Shown here one piece after another: positions 21,656 through 50,493 of a stretch of DNA of 64,000 nucleotides; position 1 is the stretch's first letter; every line of letters starts with the position of its first letter. This stretch comes from Haloferax mucosum ATCC BAA-1512 (GTDB taxonomy: Archaea > Halobacteriota > Halobacteria > Halobacteriales > Haloferacaceae). The notes below the pieces were generated by a model. That model was not told where the DNA came from, made no database searches, and was given only the letters and a program-made list of their open reading frames with translations. The position numbers and the translations under genes were made by a program. Location: assembly GCF_000337815.1 (NCBI RefSeq), contig NZ_AOLN01000011.1, forward strand, positions 434,001 to 498,000. The letters are read 5' to 3'.

Positions 21656-21925
21656 ATGACACGACCTGAACTCGAACGCGCGAGTAATCTGCTCAAGGAG
21701 GCCGCCGAAGCGACCGACGGCGAGACACAACAGCAACTCTACGAGCAGTCCGACCAACTGGCGAAACTGGCGACCCGCGACCAAGGACCGGACCACGGCC
21801 GCCTCGCCCGTCACATGACCGTGCTCCACGACCTCGCGGAAGCACTCGACGGCGACGTTGCGGAGACGGTGCGCGAGGCCCGACAGGAAGTGCTCGAATA
21901 CCGCAAAGACGTGCCGGGCGTCTGA
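21656..21925 (+). CDS. Small helical haloarchaeal protein (DUF7553-like)
   Basis: 89 aa, predicted almost entirely alpha-helical (MTRPELERASNLLKEAAEAT ... TVREARQEVLEYRKDVPGV), no Cys or membrane segments. It is divergent from uvrB with an 88-nt shared upstream region. The ATG at 21656 is preferred over the upstream start at 21587, whose codons read through the promoter. I recall the family as conserved in haloarchaea with unknown function. Confidence 0.72.
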   Translation: MTRPELERASNLLKEAAEATDGETQQQLYEQSDQLAKLATRDQGPDHGRLARHMTVLHDLAEALDGDVAETVREARQEVLEYRKDVPGV

Positions 21926-21994: not shown

Positions 21995-22015
21995 ACCCCT
22001 TCGTTTCAACTGGAG
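21995..22015 (-). other. ORB-like element (origin recognition box), remote from oriC
   Basis: Read on the minus strand this is CTCCAGTTGAAACGAAGGGG plus T, a strong match to the haloarchaeal/euryarchaeal origin recognition box bound by Orc1/Cdc6. It is identical over 21 bp to the site at 38937-38957. It lies in the 109-nt gap between two convergent genes, about 28 kb from the origin. Confidence 0.65.
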
Positions 22016-22034: not shown

Positions 22035-22709
22035 TTAGTCCGAGAACCGAGTTTCAGCTAAAAATATCCGAATGATTCGCTCATCATCTTCATCTTTAGT
22101 TATCTCTTCACCCTCTTTCTTAAATCGGTACAAGAACCCATTGTCTTCCATCTGTTCGTCATTACAAAGATTGTTCGATAACTTGTCTGCCGCTTCTGCG
22201 ACAGAAACCCAACTCTCCAGTACAACCCCAGAGTGTTCATCCAAATCAAGGGCTGCTTGGAAATAGCCCTCTAGATTCTCTTTTATGTCTGTGTTGTATC
22301 CAACAAACGTTCGCAAATATCTATTTTCCTGATATTCAATTACTGATTTATCTTGGTTCTCTTGTTTGTCTGCACTCATTCGTTCATCATATTCATCTTT
22401 TATTTCCACCCATAGGCGATCGATGTGTTCGACCGCGACTTCATGTCTGACGTCTTTGTTATCTTCCGGCGTTATCCGAATGCTGAATTTCTTGTCACCA
22501 TGGAAAGTTACGAGTCCAATAGTTGCAGCCCGGTACAAGCTGCTGTATATCGAATTTTCGTCTGGTACATTTTCTGGTTCGTTGCTCTCTCTAAGCAATT
22601 CATTTCTCAGTCCCTCGGCAGTAAATTGATTCGTCCCAAACTGATCCCAAGCGTCCAAATATGCCTCAGTTAGCTTGTTTATCCCTGGAAGCCGTCCTTC
22701 TTCGACCAT
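22035..22709 (-). CDS. Orphan hypothetical protein in a low-GC islet
   Basis: 224 aa, not recognised. GC content is roughly 40% against about 63% around it, and its codons use A/T third positions, so recent acquisition is likely. The N-terminal part (residues about 15-80: LTEAYLDAWDQFGTNQFTAE ... SLYRAATIGLVTFHGDKKF) has the look of a winged-helix DNA-binding domain, which is a guess from predicted helix-helix-hairpin pattern. The remainder is charged and helical with no transmembrane segment. The start is ATG at 22709 with a very AT-rich promoter (22715-22765). Possible cargo of a former mobile element; no integrase or repeats flank it. Confidence 0.6.
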   Translation of the reverse strand: MVEEGRLPGINKLTEAYLDAWDQFGTNQFTAEGLRNELLRESNEPENVPDENSIYSSLYRAATIGLVTFHGDKKFSIRITPEDNKDVRHEVAVEHIDRLWVEIKDEYDERMSADKQENQDKSVIEYQENRYLRTFVGYNTDIKENLEGYFQAALDLDEHSGVVLESWVSVAEAADKLSNNLCNDEQMEDNGFLYRFKKEGEEITKDEDDERIIRIFLAETRFSD

Positions 22710-22772
22710 GCACCATGTTATTAATTATAAAATATTAAAGTTCCCAATATTACCACATGTAAACCACTCGAT

Positions 22773-23372
22773 TCAGCAGACGTTCTTCGGCTTGACACCC
22801 ATTCCTTCCAGCGTCTCGACGTACTCGTCGTACGCGGCTTCGATTACCGCGTCGGCGGCTTCGCGGGCGACTGCGTCGTCCTCGACGAGGTCGTCGATAG
22901 CGACCTCGATGGTGTCGAGTTGGTCGTTGAGGTCGGATTTGAGCGTGCGGAAGTCGTTAGCGGTCATCGGGTCCGCGTCGCCGACGAAGAAGCCGACCAT
23001 CTGCTCAACGGTCTTCAGTGAGACGAGCGCGCGGGCGAGCGCGCCACCGAGGCGACCGTCGGTCGATTCGAACTCGGAGAGAACATCGTAGACGTTCGGT
23101 TCGTCAGCCGACGGTTCGAAATCAACCGTGTCGGCGTGTTCACGGGCGGTTTCGGCGAGGTTCGAAAAGAGCGCGGCGGCCCCGTCGTTCGGTTCGTCGG
23201 CGGCCCACCGGTCGAACAGGTCGGCGGCGGCGTCCGCCTCGTCGGCGGCCGCGGAGCGAACCGCGTCACCGTCCATCTCGCCGTCGGTGACGGCATAGAG
23301 GGCTTTCGAAGAACCGAGGCGAGACAGCGGCGTCTCGTGTGCGTCGCGGAGCGAGTCGAGGAAATCTGTCAT
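22773..23372 (-). CDS. Haloarchaeal helical protein, possibly ferritin-like/rubrerythrin-type fold
   Basis: 199 aa, normal GC, acidic, Ala-rich and mostly alpha-helical. The N-terminus MTDFLDSLRDAHETPLSRLGSSKALYAVTDGEMD is distinctive and, from memory, belongs to a conserved haloarchaeal family sometimes labelled rubrerythrin-like or transcription antitermination protein. The Glu/His residues needed for a di-iron centre are not obvious to me, so neither label is asserted. It ends with a lone Cys two residues after Asn (KPKNVC). It lies on the same strand as the orphan gene, 63 nt upstream of it. Confidence 0.65.
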   Translation of the reverse strand: MTDFLDSLRDAHETPLSRLGSSKALYAVTDGEMDGDAVRSAAADEADAAADLFDRWAADEPNDGAAALFSNLAETAREHADTVDFEPSADEPNVYDVLSEFESTDGRLGGALARALVSLKTVEQMVGFFVGDADPMTANDFRTLKSDLNDQLDTIEVAIDDLVEDDAVAREAADAVIEAAYDEYVETLEGMGVKPKNVC

Positions 23373-35295: not shown

Positions 35296-35316
35296 CTCCA
35301 CCCGAAACGAAGGGGT
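35296..35316 (+). other. ORB-like element, remote from oriC
   Basis: CTCCACCCGAAACGAAGGGG plus T on the plus strand, differing from the ORBs at the origin only in the variable centre. It lies in the gap between the small-peptide promoter and the end of the ferredoxin gene, 14 kb from orc1. Confidence 0.6.
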
Positions 35317-35737: not shown

Positions 35738-35762
35738 CGAGGGACGGTCCAAGGTGGATGCA

Positions 35763-38330
35763 ATGCGAACAGCGGACCTAACGAGCCTGCCTACGGGCGT
35801 TCCCGAGGCCCTCCACGACGAGGGTATCGAGGAGTTGTATCCGCCGCAGGCCGAGGCCGTCGAGGCCGGCCTGACCGACGGCGAAAGCCTCGTCGCCGCC
35901 GTCCCGACGGCGAGCGGGAAGACGCTCGTCGCCGAACTCGCAATGCTGTCGAGCGTCGCGCGAGGAGGGAAAGCGCTCTACATCGTCCCGCTCAGAGCGC
36001 TCGCCTCCGAGAAGAAAGCCGAGTTCGAACGGTGGGAAGAGTACGGCATCGACGTTGGCGTCTCGACGGGCAACTACGAGTCCAGCGGTGAGTGGCTCTC
36101 CTCGCGCGACATCATCGTCGCCACCTCCGAGAAAGTGGACTCGCTCGTCCGCAACAACGCGGCGTGGATGGACCAACTCTCGTGTGTCGTCGCCGACGAA
36201 GTCCACCTCGTCAACGACCGTAACCGCGGTCCGACGCTCGAAGTGACGCTGGCGAAACTCCGCCGACTCAACCCGGACTTGCAGGTCGTTGCGCTCTCGG
36301 CGACCGTCGGCAACGCGGGCGAAGTCGCCGAGTGGCTAGACGCTGAACTCGTCCAGTCCGACTGGCGTCCCATCGACCTCAAGATGGGCGTTCACTACGG
36401 CAACGCCATCAACTTCGACGACGGGAGCCAGCGCGAAGTTTCGGTCGGTCGCGGCGAACGACAAGCGCCTGCCCTCGTCGCGGACGCTCTCGACGGTGAC
36501 GACGACGACGACCAAGGGTCGTCGCTCGTCTTCGTCAACTCCCGACGCAACGCGGAGTCTGCGGCCCGGCGGATGGCCGACGTGACAGAACAGTACATCA
36601 CGGGCGACGAACGCGGCGAACTCGCACAGTTGGCCGCCGAGATACGCGACGTCTCCGACACCGAGACGTCCGAGGACCTCGCCAACGTCGTCGCCAAGGG
36701 CGCGGCGTTCCACCACGCCGGGCTTGCCTCGGAACACCGAACGCTCGTAGAAGACGCCTTCCGCGACCGACTCATCAAGTGTATCTCGGCGACGCCGACG
36801 CTCGCCGCCGGTGTCAACACCCCGAGTCGGCGCGTCATCGTCCGCGATTGGCAACGTTACGACGGCGACTACGGCGGCATGAAACCGCTCGACGTGCTCG
36901 AAGTCCACCAGATGATGGGTCGCGCCGGTCGCCCCGGACTCGACCCCTACGGCGAGGCGGTCTTACTCGCGTCCGACGCCGACACCCGCGACGAACTGTT
37001 CGAGCGGTACATCTGGGCCGAAGCGGAAAACGTGCGCTCGAAACTGGCGGCCGAGCCCGCACTTCGGACGCACCTGCTCGCAACCGTCGCCTCCGGGTTC
37101 GCACACACCCGCGAGGGCCTGCTCGAATTTCTCGACCAGACGCTCTACGCCACGCAAACCGACGACCCGGAGCGACTTGGACAGGTCACAGACCGCGTGC
37201 TCGACTACCTCGACGTGAACGGCTTCATCGAATTTGAAGGCGAGACCATCAAGGCGACGCCGGTCGGACACACCGTCTCGCGGCTCTATCTCGACCCGAT
37301 GAGCGCCGCCGAAATCATCGACGGGCTGGAGTGGGGTGCGAAACACCGCTCGGAGAAACTGCGAGCGCTCGCGGGCGAGACGCCCGAGAAGACGAAACGA
37401 GAGAAGACGAAACGAGAGAAGACGAAACGAGAGAAGACGAAACGAGAGAAGACGAAACGAGAGAAGACGAAACGAGAGAAGACGAAGCAAGAGACAGCCG
37501 ACGACTCCACCGGGTTCCAGCGAGCGAGCGAGATGGTCTCGGCGGGCGGAGGCGGAGACGGAAACAACTGCGGTGGCGACGCTGACGATAGCGGTAACGG
37601 CGACACTGTCGAGGAGTTCGAGACCGACCAGACCTACCCGACCCCGCTCGGTCTCTACCACCTCGTCTGCCGGACGCCGGACATGTACCAACTGTACCTG
37701 AAGTCCGGCGATAGAGAGACCTACACCGAACTGTGCTACGAACGCGAACCCGAGTTCCTCGGGCGCGTCCCCTCGGAGTACGAAGACGTCGCCTTCGAAG
37801 ACTGGCTCTCGGCGCTCAAAACCGCCACCCTACTCGAAGACTGGGTTGGAGAGGTTGACGAAAGTCGAATCACGGAGCGCTATGGGGTCGGCCCGGGCGA
37901 CATCCGCGGGAAGGTCGAAACCGCCGAGTGGCTCTTGGGTGCGGCCGAGCGGCTCGCCTCCGAACTCGACCTCGACGCGGTGTACGCGGTCCGAGAGGCG
38001 AAAAAGCGCGTCGAGTACGGCGTCGGCGAAGAACTGCTCGACCTCGCCGGCGTCCGCGGTGTCGGTCGAAAGCGCGCCCGCCGGCTCTTCGAAGCGGGTG
38101 TCGAGACCCGCGCCGACCTCCGCGAGGCAGACAAATCGCGGATTCTCGCCGCGCTCCGCGGCCGCCGCAAGACCGCCGAGAACATCCTCGAAGCGGCGGG
38201 TCGAAAGAATCCGTCGATGGACGACATCGACGAATCGGACGCGCCGGACGACGCGGTCCCCGACGATTCGGGCTTCGAGACGGCGAAAGACCGCGCCGAC
38301 CAGCAGGCCAGCCTCGGTGATTTCGAATGA
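35763..38330 (+). CDS. hel308: ATP-dependent DNA helicase Hel308 with repetitive insertion
   Basis: 855 aa Ski2-like 3'-to-5' helicase acting on stalled forks and recombination intermediates. Q motif [12 protein letters not shown], Walker A PTASGKT, DEVH box ADEVHLV, SATVGN, and motif [13 protein letters not shown] are all intact. The winged-helix and ratchet domains follow, and the C-terminus has a helix-hairpin-helix ([22 protein letters not shown]). Between the winged helix and the ratchet domain sits a low-complexity insertion of about 80 residues that starts with seven copies of [10 protein letters not shown] (about residues 542-576) and continues with a Gly/Asp-rich stretch. Most Hel308 proteins have a short loop there. 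Its stop overlaps the cgi121 start (ATGA). Confidence 0.95.
37386..37490 (+). repeat. 15-bp in-frame minisatellite, seven copies, inside hel308
   Basis: Unit GAGAAGACGAAACGA repeated head to tail at 37386, 37401, 37416, 37431, 37446, 37461 and 37476. The first six units are identical and the seventh ends GAAGCAA. It encodes EKTKR x6 then EKTKQ. Multiple-of-three unit length keeps the frame whatever the copy number, so the number probably varies between strains. Confidence 0.95.
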
Positions 38331-38821
38331 GAGTACTCGAAGCAAACGCGACCGTCTCCGACCTCGACGCGTTCATCGCCACCGTCGGAGCAGTCGCAGA
38401 CGACACGGAAGCGACGATTCAAGCGTTCGATGCACGGTACATCGTGGACCGCGACCATCTCGAACGGGCGGTCGAACTCGCCGACCGAGCCATCTCTCGC
38501 GGCAACGAAATCGCCCGCGACCGCGCCGTCGAGTTCATCCTCTACGCCAGCGGTCGCCGCCAGATTAATCGCGCCTTCGAAATCGGTGTCAGCGATGGAA
38601 CGCACCCCGTCGTTATCGTCATCGACGGCGGCGACGAACCAGCGGCGGAGGCCGCGCTGTTCGACCGCCTCGACCTCACGCCCGCGGAAACACTCGGCAA
38701 CTACGACGAATCGCTCGTCTGCGACTTTTTCGACATCGGCGACGAGGAACGTGCCATGGCAGACGACGACCTCGCCGCACTCGTCAAAGAACGCGTAGCA
38801 CTCCTCGCGGTTGACCGCTGA
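38327..38821 (+). CDS. cgi121: KEOPS complex subunit Cgi121
   Basis: 164 aa. Cgi121 is the tRNA-CCA-binding subunit of KEOPS, which makes N6-threonylcarbamoyl-adenosine on tRNA. The segment [27 protein letters not shown] and [20 protein letters not shown] are typical of the archaeal subunit. It overlaps the hel308 stop by 4 nt, so helicase and KEOPS subunit are co-expressed. The other KEOPS genes are not in the window. Confidence 0.9.
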
Positions 38822-38899: not shown

Positions 38900-38957
38900 C
38901 TCCACCCGAAACGGTCCCCCACGGGTTCAGAATGTCACCCCTTCGTTTCAACTGGAG
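38900..38957. other. Inverted pair of ORB-like elements next to tRNA-Gln
   Basis: A half-conserved ORB on the plus strand (CTCCACCCGAAACG, 38900-38913) faces a full ORB on the minus strand (38937-38957; read CTCCAGTTGAAACGAAGGGG plus T), 23 bp apart. The full site is identical over 21 bp to the one at 21995-22015. The arrangement resembles the inverted ORBs of an origin but without an AT-rich centre. Confidence 0.55.
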
Positions 38958-45111: not shown

Positions 45112-46665
45112 TCAGGAGAATTTCCGAACCGTCATGTTCAGCGTGTCGAGGTCAACGATAGGTGCGTATCCGGAGTCAGGGTCGATGTTGACGGACTTCT
45201 GGAAGTCGGTCTGTGCCTGCCAGCATCCTGAGTTGACCGCGAGCACGTTGTGGTACTTCCCCCAGCCGAGTTTGTGGACGTGGCCGGTGTGGAAGATATC
45301 GGGAACGTCTTCCATGACGAGGTAGTCGAGTTCCTCCGGTGCGAGTCGCGTGTGACCGCCGAACTGCGGCGCGACGTGTCGTTTTTTCAGGAGTTGGTAC
45401 ATCGCCTTGTGAGGTTCGTCGTAACTCGCCTTCTCCGAGGGCAGTTCGGCGATAACCTCGTCGAGCGAGACGCCGTGGTACATGAGTATTTTGACGCCTT
45501 CGAGCGTGACCATCGACGGATTGCTCGTGATTTGTGCGTCGTGGACGGACATGATATCGCGGAGTTCGTCGTCGAAACCGGGTTGCGGTTCGGCGAGTCG
45601 AACCGCGTCGTGGTTGCCCGGAATCATCACGATATCGATGTCGCCGGGGACCGATTTGAGATGCTCCGAGAACACCTCATATTGGTCGTAGATGTCGATT
45701 ACGTCGAGTTCCTCGTCTTGATTCGGGTAGATACCGACGCCCTCGACCATGTCGCCGGCGATGAGGAGATATTCGATGTGTTCTGCTTCTTCGGTGTGGA
45801 GCCACTCTGCAAATCGGTTCCACGCGTCAGCCATGAACTCCTGACTGCCGACGTGGACGTCGGAGATGAGCGCCGCTTGGACGTGTCTGTCGGCGGTGTT
45901 CGGACGGTAACTTCGCGGTACGTCCGGGAAGTGCATCGAATCGACGAACAGGATGCCGCCGTCGCCCGAAAGGGTCCCTTCGACGGCGATACACTCGTCC
46001 AACAGGAGGTCATCGACGTAGGACGCGATTCCCTTGTCTTTCATCACGAGACACGGGAACGTCCCCGTCGTGTCTTCGAGATCGATAATCCAGTGGCCGC
46101 TTTTCGTCGATCGAACGTCATCGACCAGTCCGATGAGTTCCGCGTCCTCTCCACCGGACATGTTCGAAAGCGCCTTGGTCGGACGGTGGTTGACGCGTCC
46201 GCGCAACATCTTCGAGAGTTTCGCGTATCGGTCGCGGAACACCTTCACGAAGTCGTCGTACTCCCCGGTGCCGGTCGATTGACCGGTCATATCGTTCGCA
46301 ATGTCGAGAGAGCGAACCGACTGGTCTGTGTTCCGTCCGGTGGGAGACCCCTTCGCTTCGCTTGGAGTGTTTTGTCCAGCATGAGTTGTGCTGTCACCCG
46401 ATACTGCACCGGAAACGGAGGGGTCGCTTGCGGCGGCGCTCTGTGATGCGGTTCCGGACGGGTCCGCGGCGGGCGCAGACGCGAGCACCTCGCGGACGTG
46501 GTCGGCGGTGATTCGAAGCGCGTCGTCCGGGACGGTTTCGACGACGCGGGCGAGCGTGTTGCCCGGGTCGTCCGAACCGGCAATGAGAGTCACGGCCTCG
46601 CGTTCTGCGTTGTAGCCGCGACTGACGAGTGCCCGGACGATGCGCGCCGGCGTCTCCAGTGGCAC
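45112..46665 (-). CDS. polB: DNA polymerase II (PolD) small subunit, exonuclease DP1
   Basis: 517 aa small subunit of the archaeal replicative polymerase D. It has an N-terminal helical region, a Ser/Thr-rich linker (about residues 65-140), an OB fold, and a calcineurin-like 3'-5' exonuclease domain: ALISDVHVGSQEF, IAGDMVEGVG, IPGNHDAVRL, MYHGVSLDE and FHTGHVHKLGW are the metal motifs. The start is GTG at 46665, where conserved PLETPARIVRALVSRGYNAEREA begins; longer frames cross the divergent promoter. A TATA-like CTTTTTGC (46688-46696, minus strand) precedes it. The large subunit is not in the window. Confidence 0.94.
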   Translation of the reverse strand: MPLETPARIVRALVSRGYNAEREAVTLIAGSDDPGNTLARVVETVPDDALRITADHVREVLASAPAADPSGTASQSAAASDPSVSGAVSGDSTTHAGQNTPSEAKGSPTGRNTDQSVRSLDIANDMTGQSTGTGEYDDFVKVFRDRYAKLSKMLRGRVNHRPTKALSNMSGGEDAELIGLVDDVRSTKSGHWIIDLEDTTGTFPCLVMKDKGIASYVDDLLLDECIAVEGTLSGDGGILFVDSMHFPDVPRSYRPNTADRHVQAALISDVHVGSQEFMADAWNRFAEWLHTEEAEHIEYLLIAGDMVEGVGIYPNQDEELDVIDIYDQYEVFSEHLKSVPGDIDIVMIPGNHDAVRLAEPQPGFDDELRDIMSVHDAQITSNPSMVTLEGVKILMYHGVSLDEVIAELPSEKASYDEPHKAMYQLLKKRHVAPQFGGHTRLAPEELDYLVMEDVPDIFHTGHVHKLGWGKYHNVLAVNSGCWQAQTDFQKSVNIDPDSGYAPIVDLDTLNMTVRKFS

Positions 46666-47749: not shown

Positions 47750-49384
47750 TCAGTTGTCGAATCGCGCTTGGACGAACGGTTGTGCGCTTTCGATATCGCC
47801 GAGACGGGAGTCCGTTAGGAGGACCGCCTCCGTCTCGTCGATGGGAACCGAGAGACTGATTTCCTTGGTTCGGCCGTACCGGCCCTTGGAGACGACGACG
47901 GCGTTGACGATGCCGAGCATGTCGAGTTCCGAGATGAGGTCGGTCACGCGGCGCTGTGTGAGGACATCGGCGTCGATCTCCTCACAGAGGCGCTTGTAGA
48001 TGTTGAACACCTCGCCGGTGTTGATGTTGCGGACGCCGTTCTTTTCGAGCAGGATGATGGCAAAGAGGACGATTTTCGACTGCGTGGGAAGCGTCCGAAC
48101 GACCTCGACGACGCGGTCGAGTTCGATTTTATCCTGCGCCTGTCGGACGTGCGCCTCTTCGACGGTGTCGGCCTGTCCGCGTTCGGCGAGTTCCCCGGCC
48201 GTTCGGAGCAAGTCGAGTGCGCGACGCGCGTCACCGTGTTCCTGTGCGGCGAATGCCGCACAGAGCGGAATCACGTCGTCAGTGAGCGCACCGCCTTTGA
48301 ACGCCACGTCGGCGCGGTGCTGGAGAATGTCGCGGAGTTGATTCGCGTCGTACGGCGGGAAGACGATTTCCTCCTCGCCGAGACTCGATTTGACCCGCGG
48401 GTCGAGGAAATCGGTGAACTTCAGGTCGTTCGAGATACCCATGATAGAGATCCGCGAGTTGTCGAGTTCGGAGTTCATCCGCGAAAGGTTGTAGAGCGTG
48501 TCGTCGCCCGATTTCTCGACGAGTTTGTCGATTTCGTCGAGCATGATGACGACCACGCGTTCTTTGTAATCGACAGCGTCGAAGAACGTCGTGTAAACCC
48601 GGTCTGTCGGCCATCCCGTCATCGGAACGGTCTCCATCTCGTCGGCGTCGGCGGCGAGTTCGTCCGCGCGCTCGTCGATTTCGGCGATGGAGTCGTAGGG
48701 CGTCTCGGCGAGCGCGTTCGGGTCTTCGGTCGCTCGCGTGCGCATCTCGTCGAGTCGGTCCTGTTCCGCTTCGATGCGCTCGACGTTCTTTTCGATGAAC
48801 TTGTTGGCGAGTTGCGCGAGCACGCGGTACTGCGTGTCTGTTACCTCGCAGTTGATATACTCGACTTCACACGGAACGTCGTACTTCTGGGAGGTCGATT
48901 CCAGTTCCTGACTGACGAACTTCGCACTCGCCGTCTTCCCCGTTCCCGTTTTTCCGTAGATGAGGATGTTCGACGGCGTCTCGCCGCGCAGTGCGGAGAC
49001 GAGAATCGTCGCCATCTGGTTGATTTGGTCGGTTCTGTGCGGGAGTTCGTGTGGCGTGTACGATGGGCGAAGGACTTCCTTGTTCTCGAAGATCGGTTCG
49101 CCGGCGAGTAGGTCGTCGAACAGTCCCTTCGACCCCTCGTCGTCGTTCAAGACGACCTTGTCGAGTCCGACGTCGGGGTCTTTGTGCTGGTCGAGGTCAT
49201 CGGCGGGCGTGTCGGTATCGGGACCGATGCTCGCCTGGATGTCGATATCCTCGGCGGATACGGCATCTTCGGTGGATGCACTGGTCTCAGCCGGTGTATC
49301 ACCAGCCTCGGTGTCGTCATCGCGTCGAGGGTTGTCACCGTCTTCCCGTCGATTCCCTCCTCGTGAGTTGTCGTCCTCGTCCAT
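47750..49384 (-). CDS. orc1: Origin recognition/initiator protein Orc1/Cdc6
   Basis: 544 aa replication initiator that binds ORB sites and loads MCM. An acidic N-terminal extension of about 100 residues, rich in Asp/Thr, precedes the AAA+ core. Walker A is YGKTGTGKTASAKF, Walker B VVVIMLDEIDKLVEK, sensor 1 ISIMGISNDLKF, and sensor 2 EHGDARRALDLLRTAG. The last about 130 residues form the winged-helix DNA-binding domain (INTGEVFNIYKRLCEEI ... QRRVTDLISELDMLGIV). ATG at 49384. An ORB lies directly in its promoter, suggesting self-regulation. It borders the origin region. Confidence 0.97.
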   Translation of the reverse strand: MDEDDNSRGGNRREDGDNPRRDDDTEAGDTPAETSASTEDAVSAEDIDIQASIGPDTDTPADDLDQHKDPDVGLDKVVLNDDEGSKGLFDDLLAGEPIFENKEVLRPSYTPHELPHRTDQINQMATILVSALRGETPSNILIYGKTGTGKTASAKFVSQELESTSQKYDVPCEVEYINCEVTDTQYRVLAQLANKFIEKNVERIEAEQDRLDEMRTRATEDPNALAETPYDSIAEIDERADELAADADEMETVPMTGWPTDRVYTTFFDAVDYKERVVVIMLDEIDKLVEKSGDDTLYNLSRMNSELDNSRISIMGISNDLKFTDFLDPRVKSSLGEEEIVFPPYDANQLRDILQHRADVAFKGGALTDDVIPLCAAFAAQEHGDARRALDLLRTAGELAERGQADTVEEAHVRQAQDKIELDRVVEVVRTLPTQSKIVLFAIILLEKNGVRNINTGEVFNIYKRLCEEIDADVLTQRRVTDLISELDMLGIVNAVVVSKGRYGRTKEISLSVPIDETEAVLLTDSRLGDIESAQPFVQARFDN

Positions 49385-49391
49385 CGTGTGT

Positions 49392-49412
49392 ACCCCTTCG
49401 TTTCAAGTGGAA
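49392..49412 (-). other. ORB element within the orc1 promoter
   Basis: Minus-strand TTCCACTTGAAACGAAGGGG plus T, a consensus ORB, ending 8 nt before the orc1 ATG and abutting its TATA-like box. Confidence 0.85.
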
Positions 49413-49417
49413 TATTC
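49411..49417 (-). promoter_or_regulatory. TATA-like box of orc1
   Basis: GAATATT on the minus strand, about 27-30 nt before the orc1 ATG at 49384; predicts a leaderless or nearly leaderless transcript whose start point falls inside the adjacent ORB region. Confidence 0.5.
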
Positions 49418-49640
49418 GCCAACATCGGCCATTTCAGAGCTTGATGCCGGTAACGAACGGCATCTTCGCCTCGTGCCAGCGAAGGCGATTCCAGATGATG
49501 CAAAGGAACCAAACGAACAGTTGGTACAAAAAACTTACTTCTCCGACTTGTTCGACCCTCCACACCCGAAACGCGGGCGGAGAGGAGTGTTTCAACACGA
49601 GAGTTGGAGATATAATCGCGGGAGTCCGATGTGCCGAACT

Positions 49641-49687
49641 TTTCGGTACGGGTCGTTCGAGAGCTTTCGGTACGAGTCGTTCGGGAG
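49641..49687 (+). repeat. 24-bp-period tandem direct repeat in the origin
   Basis: Two 23-bp copies (49641-49663 and 49665-49687) beginning TTTCGGTACG and ending CG.GAG, 21 of 23 bases identical and one base apart. Iteron-like; no ORB sequence inside. Confidence 0.7.
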
Positions 49688-50123
49688 AGGAAGTTCCCGC
49701 GTAATCCTCCGAGAGTGGAATGTTAGATGTACTCGTCTCCAAAGTGTTCTCGAAAGTTGAGTAGGTCCTCGAATAAGTACGAGGAGGTCGAGTGCAACCG
49801 ACTAGGACGAGCGTGATGACCGGAGTCGGTTTGGTAGGAACCTAACGTAGAAACGAAGACCGAGAACTTTCGACTCGAAGCGGAGGGACGAAGGTAGCGT
49901 CGCAATCGGAGACTCGGTGCTGTCGCTGGATGCTTTCGCGTCGGCGAGGGTGATGCTCGGATTGTGCGTTGGTAACCGGGACGGCTTCGGGTCGAGTCCG
50001 AATTGGGCGGTTGACGGCGGAGCGACAACCCGACCACGAACCGAATTCGAAGCGGGTAGCTGGAGTAACCTAGGATGGAGAAGCGACGGTACCAGTGTAC
50101 CGAGGTGAAAATTGGGTTGGAGA

Positions 50124-50144
50124 ACCCCTTCGTTTCGTGTGGAA
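50124..50144 (-). other. ORB element in oriC
   Basis: Minus-strand TTCCACACGAAACGAAGGGG plus T; full match in both conserved arms, variable centre ACAC. Confidence 0.85.
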
Positions 50145-50276
50145 ACCGGGGAAACAGGAATTAGCTGAAATGAGCAGGTAGCGACGTTTTGAGAGTCACT
50201 TAACCCCCCATTTTCCGTGCAATTAAGTGGTCGATCTCCAGTTCGACAGGAAAGCCTTGGTTCTCGGATGCCCCAC

Positions 50277-50297
50277 ACCCCTTTGTTTCGGGTGGAG
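50277..50297 (-). other. ORB element in oriC, left arm of inverted pair
   Basis: Minus-strand CTCCACCCGAAACAAAGGGG plus T; pairs in inverted orientation with 50473-50493 around the AT-rich stretch. Confidence 0.88.
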
Positions 50298-50334
50298 ACG
50301 TGAAACAGAAGGACGGGGGTCTCGGTGGCTTTTG

Positions 50335-50430
50335 TAAAGAGGTGGTTTTATTACTGATATTGTCCTACCATATCCGCACTGGGATAAAATCAATTATTGT
50401 TGTGGTGGAGGTAGATTGAATTAATACTCG
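50335..50430. other. AT-rich putative DNA unwinding element
   Basis: About 60% A+T in a 37% A+T surrounding, with runs such as TTTTATTACTGATATTG, GGATAAAATCAATTATTG and GATTGAATTAATACTC. It sits between inverted ORBs, the classic place for strand opening in archaeal origins. Confidence 0.75.
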
Positions 50431-50472
50431 ACTGCCGTCTAGCGGTCACCCCCCACCCACCCCTTCGTGGTG

Positions 50473-50493
50473 TTCCACCCGAAACAAAGGGGT
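50473..50493 (+). other. ORB element in oriC, right arm of inverted pair
   Basis: Plus-strand TTCCACCCGAAACAAAGGGG plus T, followed by a GTGGGGGTG run; identical in the core to the element at 50277-50297 in the opposite direction. A degraded copy begins at 50500. Confidence 0.88.

Follow-up and report, generated by a model that had tools for sequence, protein, structure and literature searches.

The analysed window, a stretch of 64,000 nucleotides of Haloferax mucosum ATCC BAA-1512, contains a low-GC gene (the islet gene) in an intergenic slot between two convergent genes, next to a single ORB. The slot and its borders comprise the following features:

21656..21925, plus strand: DUF7553 gene, the conserved left border of the slot (Pfam, E 1.9e-28)
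21996..22014, plus strand: solitary ORB S1 (CCCCTTCGTTTCAACTGGA), outside the islet, in 15/15 genus genomes
22035..22709, minus strand: islet gene, an ORF with an ATG start encoding 224 aa, a member of clade A in a haloarchaeal family of two-domain proteins and putative winged-helix regulator (ORF reading of the window, genome searches, tree, GC)
22710..22745, minus strand: AT-rich promoter of the islet gene with a TATA-like stretch (by eye)
22773..23372, minus strand: conserved 199-aa gene, the right border of the slot, in 15/15 genus genomes

The uvrB gene is positioned beyond the DUF7553 gene, away from the islet. The islet gene has a GC content of 42.2% compared to 62.3% for the window, and a GC3 of 41.3% compared to 82% for UvrB, 80% for the right neighbour and 73-82% for the neighbours overall. 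It is the lowest-GC stretch of 675 nt within the window, the runner-up being located at the origin (50.1 kb, 51%). These values agree with an earlier note on this DNA, which had described a low-GC gene islet of about 40% GC in a 63% region with an AT-rich promoter and an ORB 20 bp past the stop codon. The DNA immediately 5′ of the ATG is indeed rich in AT; by eye, a TATA-like stretch can be seen some 26 nt upstream of the ATG. An exact ORB lies at 21996-22014 (+), the stop codon ending at 22035. A scan for bacterial-type promoters revealed none; terminator-like sites in the same scan numbered 3, with 0.7 expected. The islet itself contains no integrase, repeat or att site, and no direct repeats resembling a target duplication were found around it.

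The content of the slot was compared across the genus. The DUF7553 gene lies at most 1.5 kb from the 199-aa gene in 14/15 genomes, and in the remaining one (G006) a 428-aa gene occupies the slot. Across the former 14 genomes the slot length varies from 143 to 941 bp, the 143-bp sites being near-empty, and a 65-aa low-GC ORF is present in the slot of two of them (G007 and G012). The islet gene was found only in the source genome (G000) and is missing from the other 14. The presence/absence check proposed in the earlier note thus showed that it is not a low-GC gene conserved throughout the genus. The slot is a small insertion hot spot that varies between species, and since its contents differ, the source genome carries one of several lineage-specific inserts. 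A blastn search of the slot DNA against plasmids gave no match. The fillers in the related species are a lipoprotein-like gene in the case of the 428-aa gene (L107, 3260-4546) and a membrane-protein-like ORF in the case of the 65-aa frame (L054, 1095-1292, in G007; L052, 1100-1297, in G012).

At the place of S1, an ORB with at most one mismatch is present in 15/15 genus genomes, always with the same orientation relative to the right neighbour. The S1 element CCCCYTCGTTTCNACTGGARC is nearly unchanged across the genus, and the DNA to its right has little or no similarity from one group of species to another. The core of S1 is the core of the oriC1 ORBs of the same genome, and the site matches the consensus exactly, including the C/G-string. 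In regard to a replication origin at S1, only a single ORB was found, with no inverted partner and no adjoining orc gene. The comparison of empty sites between the two flanking genes, also suggested in the earlier note, revealed that the ORB is kept in genomes without the gene and is hence independent of the islet. An assignment of the ORB to the islet was rejected on this ground.

Solitary ORBs in the neighbourhood of oriC1

The other relevant features of the window are located between 35 and 51 kb:

35297..35315, minus strand: solitary ORB S2 (motif scan, genus alignment)
35754..38330, plus strand: large helicase gene, presumably Hel308-like, upstream partner of the gene preceding S3 (reading of the S3 loci)
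38327..38821, plus strand: 164-aa gene, presumably Cgi121-like, directly upstream of S3 (reading of the S3 loci)
38938..38956, plus strand: solitary ORB S3, 3′ of the Hel308-Cgi121 pair and beside tRNA-Gln (motif scan)
47750..49384, minus strand: gene which we take to be orc1, encoding the initiator of oriC1 (nearly all family genomes have a single match with E at or below 1e-100)
49393..50492, both strands: oriC1 ORB cluster with sites at 49393 (+), 50125 (+), 50278 (+) and 50474 (−) (motif scan)

The window contains 13 ORB sites with at most three mismatches, compared to 0.18 expected from shuffled sequences, because it contains oriC1. The exact 16-mer YTTCGTTTCNANTGGA occurs three times in the 3.37-Mb genome, each time within the window. 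The pattern CCCCTTCGTTTCNNNTGGA, with at most one mismatch allowed, matches 11 sites in the genome: four at oriC1 and the orc1 promoter, six elsewhere on contig C11 and one elsewhere. The six sites on C11 reach as far as 27 kb from the origin in the direction of orc1 and 38 kb in the opposite direction. Intergenic solitary ORBs in the window are S1 (21996), S2 (35297) and S3 (38938), and the sites at 46348 and 55041 lie in likely coding DNA, the latter inside a hef-like gene. A further solitary ORB of the same set was noted at 520983-521001 of C11.

The places of these sites are conserved. S2 was found with at most one mismatch in 14/15 genus genomes, and the remaining one (G001) has a two-mismatch site at the expected place. 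S3 was found in 13/15, with no site at this threshold in G003 and G005. Among 18 satellite regions from other genera, 11 carry an ORB behind the Hel308-Cgi121 homologues in the orientation of S3, one (G023) carries an ORB between the DUF7553 gene and the 199-aa gene, as in S1, and in six none of the 17 window genes tried is present. In some species, a further ORB-like core in inverted orientation, lacking a proper C-string, stands next to the ORB at S3 (L086 and L090, position 164, the ORB being at 201).

In order to quantify the distribution, ORB sites were counted by their distance to orc1. The reversed pattern, used as a control, matched twice in total across 59 family genomes, each of which had true matches. 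The first set consisted of the 19 family genomes with a complete listing (G044 and unlisted genomes left out), and the second set of 17 further family genomes chosen for few contigs and a known orc1 position. With a 5-kb cut picked after both sets had been seen, the 143 sites of the first set comprised 72 at no more than 5 kb from orc1, 44 between 5 and 45 kb and 27 in the rest of the genome, and the 122 sites of the second set comprised 72, 27 and 23, respectively. Calculated with rounded genome sizes, the density at 5-45 kb was 28.9 per Mb in the first set and 19.9 per Mb in the second, compared to 0.38 elsewhere in each (77-fold and 53-fold). At least one site at 5-45 kb was present in 16/17 genomes of the second set. 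A zone of 2.5-45 kb, defined with the first set and kept as it was for the second, yielded 37 and 34 per Mb, respectively. S1 belongs to a group of solitary oriC1-type ORBs located 5-45 kb from orc1, which in 36 family genomes are enriched 50-80 fold relative to the rest of the genome. Besides these, a recurrent ORB, sometimes an inverted pair, was observed in family genomes on the side of orc1, roughly 3 kb from the start of this gene (range 2.5-5 kb).

Such sites could also be local transcription signals, with Orc1 acting at gene ends or promoters, that lie near oriC1 merely through old gene order. S1 and S3 are located at gene 3′ ends and S2 upstream of a small ORF. In G118, S3 is found across the origin, yet its orientation to the Cgi121-like gene is unchanged. 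However, the enrichment near orc1 is seen at many distances in the 36 genomes and not only beside these genes. Moreover, in a second family none of 28 loci with the gene pair has an ORB (at most three mismatches) within 250 bp after Cgi121, though 29/30 orc1 loci of this family carry the motif with at most one mismatch. A purely local transcriptional role is rather unlikely. On account of the same 28 loci, the idea that S3 belongs intrinsically to the Hel308-Cgi121 genes wherever they occur was rejected.

The islet protein and its two-domain family

The earlier note had reported no recognised homologue of the islet protein. This holds for the curated libraries (PHROGs, Pfam, NCBIfam and PADLOC), which gave chance-level matches or none, but not for genomes. 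A paralogue is present in the source genome itself (37% identity, E 1.7e-43), matches were obtained in 5/170 family genomes, and a three-sequence profile found relatives in 30/391 class genomes. In the family of G343, 9/146 genomes matched at 1e-15, with clade-A-like scores only in G343 and G279. A tblastn search of plasmids yielded seven records, all remote (22-25% identity), belonging to clade B and designated "hypothetical protein" or unannotated. No credible homologue was returned by PDB profile searches, no match by tblastn against phages, and no confirmed relative by scans of genome and viral contigs with the islet protein or three alignments.

In a tree of 30 rows, which excluded the fragments L017 and L035 as well as row L037 and also lacks four clade-B loci from the G343-family search, the islet protein, the paralogue and the copies of G343, G069, G279 and G259 form a single group, clade A (support 100/100). 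The islet protein is sister to the G343 copy (62% identity, support 100/99), which contains one in-frame stop. Clade A totals seven sequences once the fragment of G310 is included; six have a GC content of 0.39-0.45 and the G069 copy has 0.61. Proteins of the FmdA-associated clade B are similar to the islet protein in length and two-part layout and can be aligned with clade A over the whole length at 18-23% identity, with Y17, F29 and P81 invariant. This full-length similarity, the profile matches and the tree place the islet protein in the family formed by both clades. Judged by these sequence comparisons, the islet gene is no orphan: it belongs to clade A, a small group with mostly low GC within a haloarchaeal family of two-domain proteins.

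The two clades differ in their surroundings, clade A being sporadic, mostly low in GC and mobile, whereas clade B has mostly host-like GC and a fixed amide-cluster context. The paralogue in the source genome lies 547 bp from one tyrosine recombinase and 3.4 kb from a second, and its region also carries a packaging-ATPase-like protein (phrog_2666, E 8.4e-13), for which tblastn against phages gave no match. With these genes, the region (L007, 7584-16297, at about 115-124 kb of C11) is probably an integrated element. The G259 copy adjoins an integrase (PF00589, E 1.4e-20). The G343 copy adjoins a 619-aa protein that matches phrog_12863 (892 bits) and, weakly and below cutoff, a Rep family, and an integrase is located about 6 kb away. 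By eye, TnpA/TnpB-like genes adjoin the G310 fragment and a transposase-like fragment adjoins the G279 copy; in the stretch read around the G069 copy no mobile neighbour was found. Profile-backed mobile neighbours (integrase or Rep-like) thus accompany 3/7 clade-A copies, including the paralogue.

All 30 clade-B loci contain an FmdA, AmiS, CMD-like or thermosome-like protein within 1.5 kb (tblastn), and 19 of them FmdA specifically. Pfam confirmed five FmdA (PF03069) and two AmiS_UreI (PF02293) proteins, and of two CMD-like proteins tested, one scored below cutoff and the other had no match. The unnamed two-domain protein is a constant member of this haloarchaeal fmdA/AmiS/CMD-like/thermosome-like amide cluster (e.g., L065-L069). 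The clade-B gene and fmdA are divergent in each of the five larger loci that were read, and a divergent pair is a usual arrangement for a regulator and its target. The part of a study on haloarchaeal acetamidases that was available (PMC5052560) does not mention a neighbour of the clade-B type.

The family alignment shows an N-terminal part ending in an "LVAYGLVE...YRVR"-like stretch, followed by a helix, and a conserved C-terminal domain ("GVVLRS...A...LAD.LC...FEK...LEFRLFL"). The protein would consist of a winged-helix-like N-terminal part, a linker helix and the C-terminal domain. A single-sequence AlphaFold model of the islet protein was poor (mean pLDDT 38), with residues ~30-77 at a pLDDT of only about 50-70; in this segment H31-41, H51-63, E67-71 and E74-77 are predicted, a winged-helix-like order of helix, helix and beta hairpin. 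The supposition of the earlier note that the N-terminus may be a winged helix is weakly supported by this predicted order, and no profile or PDB match was found. Family, tree and genomic context suggest that the islet protein is most likely a DNA-binding transcription regulator that would act on mobile-element genes. The description of the islet as a mobile or small regulatory gene was apt in so far as the gene is foreign (1/15 genus genomes), groups in the tree with mobile haloarchaeal copies and is probably regulatory.

The earlier note had also offered a small defence gene. A defence or toxin-antitoxin-like gene instead of a regulator would fit the low GC, the sporadic occurrence as a single gene and the mobile neighbours, and a PIN/RHH-like pair was seen by eye near the G279 copy. 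Yet none of six family members tested matched a PADLOC model, the sister clade belongs to a metabolic cluster, no catalytic signature was seen and the islet lacks a partner gene, which makes such a function doubtful. Regulation of amide use by the islet gene, as presumed for its clade-B relatives, is improbable: the two-part layout is the same in the alignments and clade B always stands by fmdA/AmiS-type genes, but identity to clade B is low, and the search found neither fmdA nor AmiS beside the clade-A copies or in the part of the window that it covered.

Interpretation and comparison with known systems

The earlier note had taken the ORB as a mark of a mobile-replicon remnant. That islet and ORB together derive from an integrated plasmid or minichromosome whose origin bore the ORB is suggested by their direct adjacency and by family members on elements with Rep-like or integrase genes, but is hardly credible, since 14 genus genomes keep the ORB at the identical place without the gene, no ORB (at most two mismatches) was found in the fetched surroundings (10-20 kb) of the other clade-A genes or at five clade-B loci, and a lone ORB without partner or orc gene makes no origin. 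The islet gene and the adjoining ORB are unrelated.

We consider it probable that a recent, mobile-borne regulator gene sits in a tolerant slot beside an independent and old host ORB, an Orc1-binding satellite of oriC1. The islet gene would have arrived recently by horizontal transfer, as a single low-GC gene with its own promoter, at a tolerant point between two convergent genes. Clade A would be carried by integrative elements, and sister clade B is a constant partner of the formamidase/AmiS amide-use cluster. S1 would be an old host element, one of several oriC1-type sites at fixed places within ~45 kb of oriC1. The islet gene is a horizontal acquisition of an ordinary kind, but an informative one, and gives a first context, with an amide-use branch and a mobile branch, for an unnamed haloarchaeal protein family. 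The adjoining ORB is of more interest, being a conserved element of the host oriC1 neighbourhood.

The identity with the oriC1 ORBs, the conservation and the clustering suggest that the solitary ORBs most likely bind Orc1 away from the origin, and an effect on initiation, by titration or by marking of an origin domain, may follow. Tentatively, the array of solitary sites, copied soon after firing, might soak up or relocate Orc1 and so limit re-initiation or define an origin domain. Conserved dispersed initiator sites around the main origin would represent a tangible control element that can be deleted, in a genus amenable to genetics, and bear on the control of firing in a polyploid archaeon with several origins.

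As far as the accessible parts of the origin literature show, surveys of haloarchaea covered the surroundings of orc/cdc6 genes, and mention is made of ORBs downstream of cdc6 genes other than cdc6E (PMC3528665, PMC3936714, PMC4595724, PMC4010727, PMC7776575, PMC2841640, PMC3119063). The recurrent site about 3 kb from orc1 is probably of this downstream-of-cdc6 kind, and sites within ~5 kb of orc1 in general may be. In a search of the haloarchaeal origin literature that was not exhaustive, no description of solitary ORBs tens of kb from an origin was found. S1 shares its core with the oriC1 ORBs of its own genome, but differs from the oriC1 ORBs with the haloarchaeal G-string described in PMC3528665 and PMC3936714 in being solitary, ~28 kb from the origin and without an inverted partner or an orc gene alongside.

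The principle proposed for titration of the datA type is that initiator sites close to an origin are duplicated shortly after it fires and then bind free initiator. The closest archaeal parallel is oriC2D of Haloarcula hispanica, a cluster of ORBs next to cdc6E that, according to the part of PMC3936714 available, lowers oriC2 activity, likely via titration. Like the solitary ORBs, oriC2D provides extra initiator sites near an origin that are proposed to lower its activity; unlike them, its 11 ORBs are packed into a single region of 722 bp immediately downstream of cdc6E, whereas the solitary ORBs are singles over tens of kb. The DnaA-box titration at datA in E. coli, mentioned in the same part of PMC3936714, would share the principle of initiator sites near the origin, although datA belongs to a bacterial DnaA system. 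If the proposed role is correct, they would constitute an archaeal counterpart of DnaA-box titration, spread over tens of kb.
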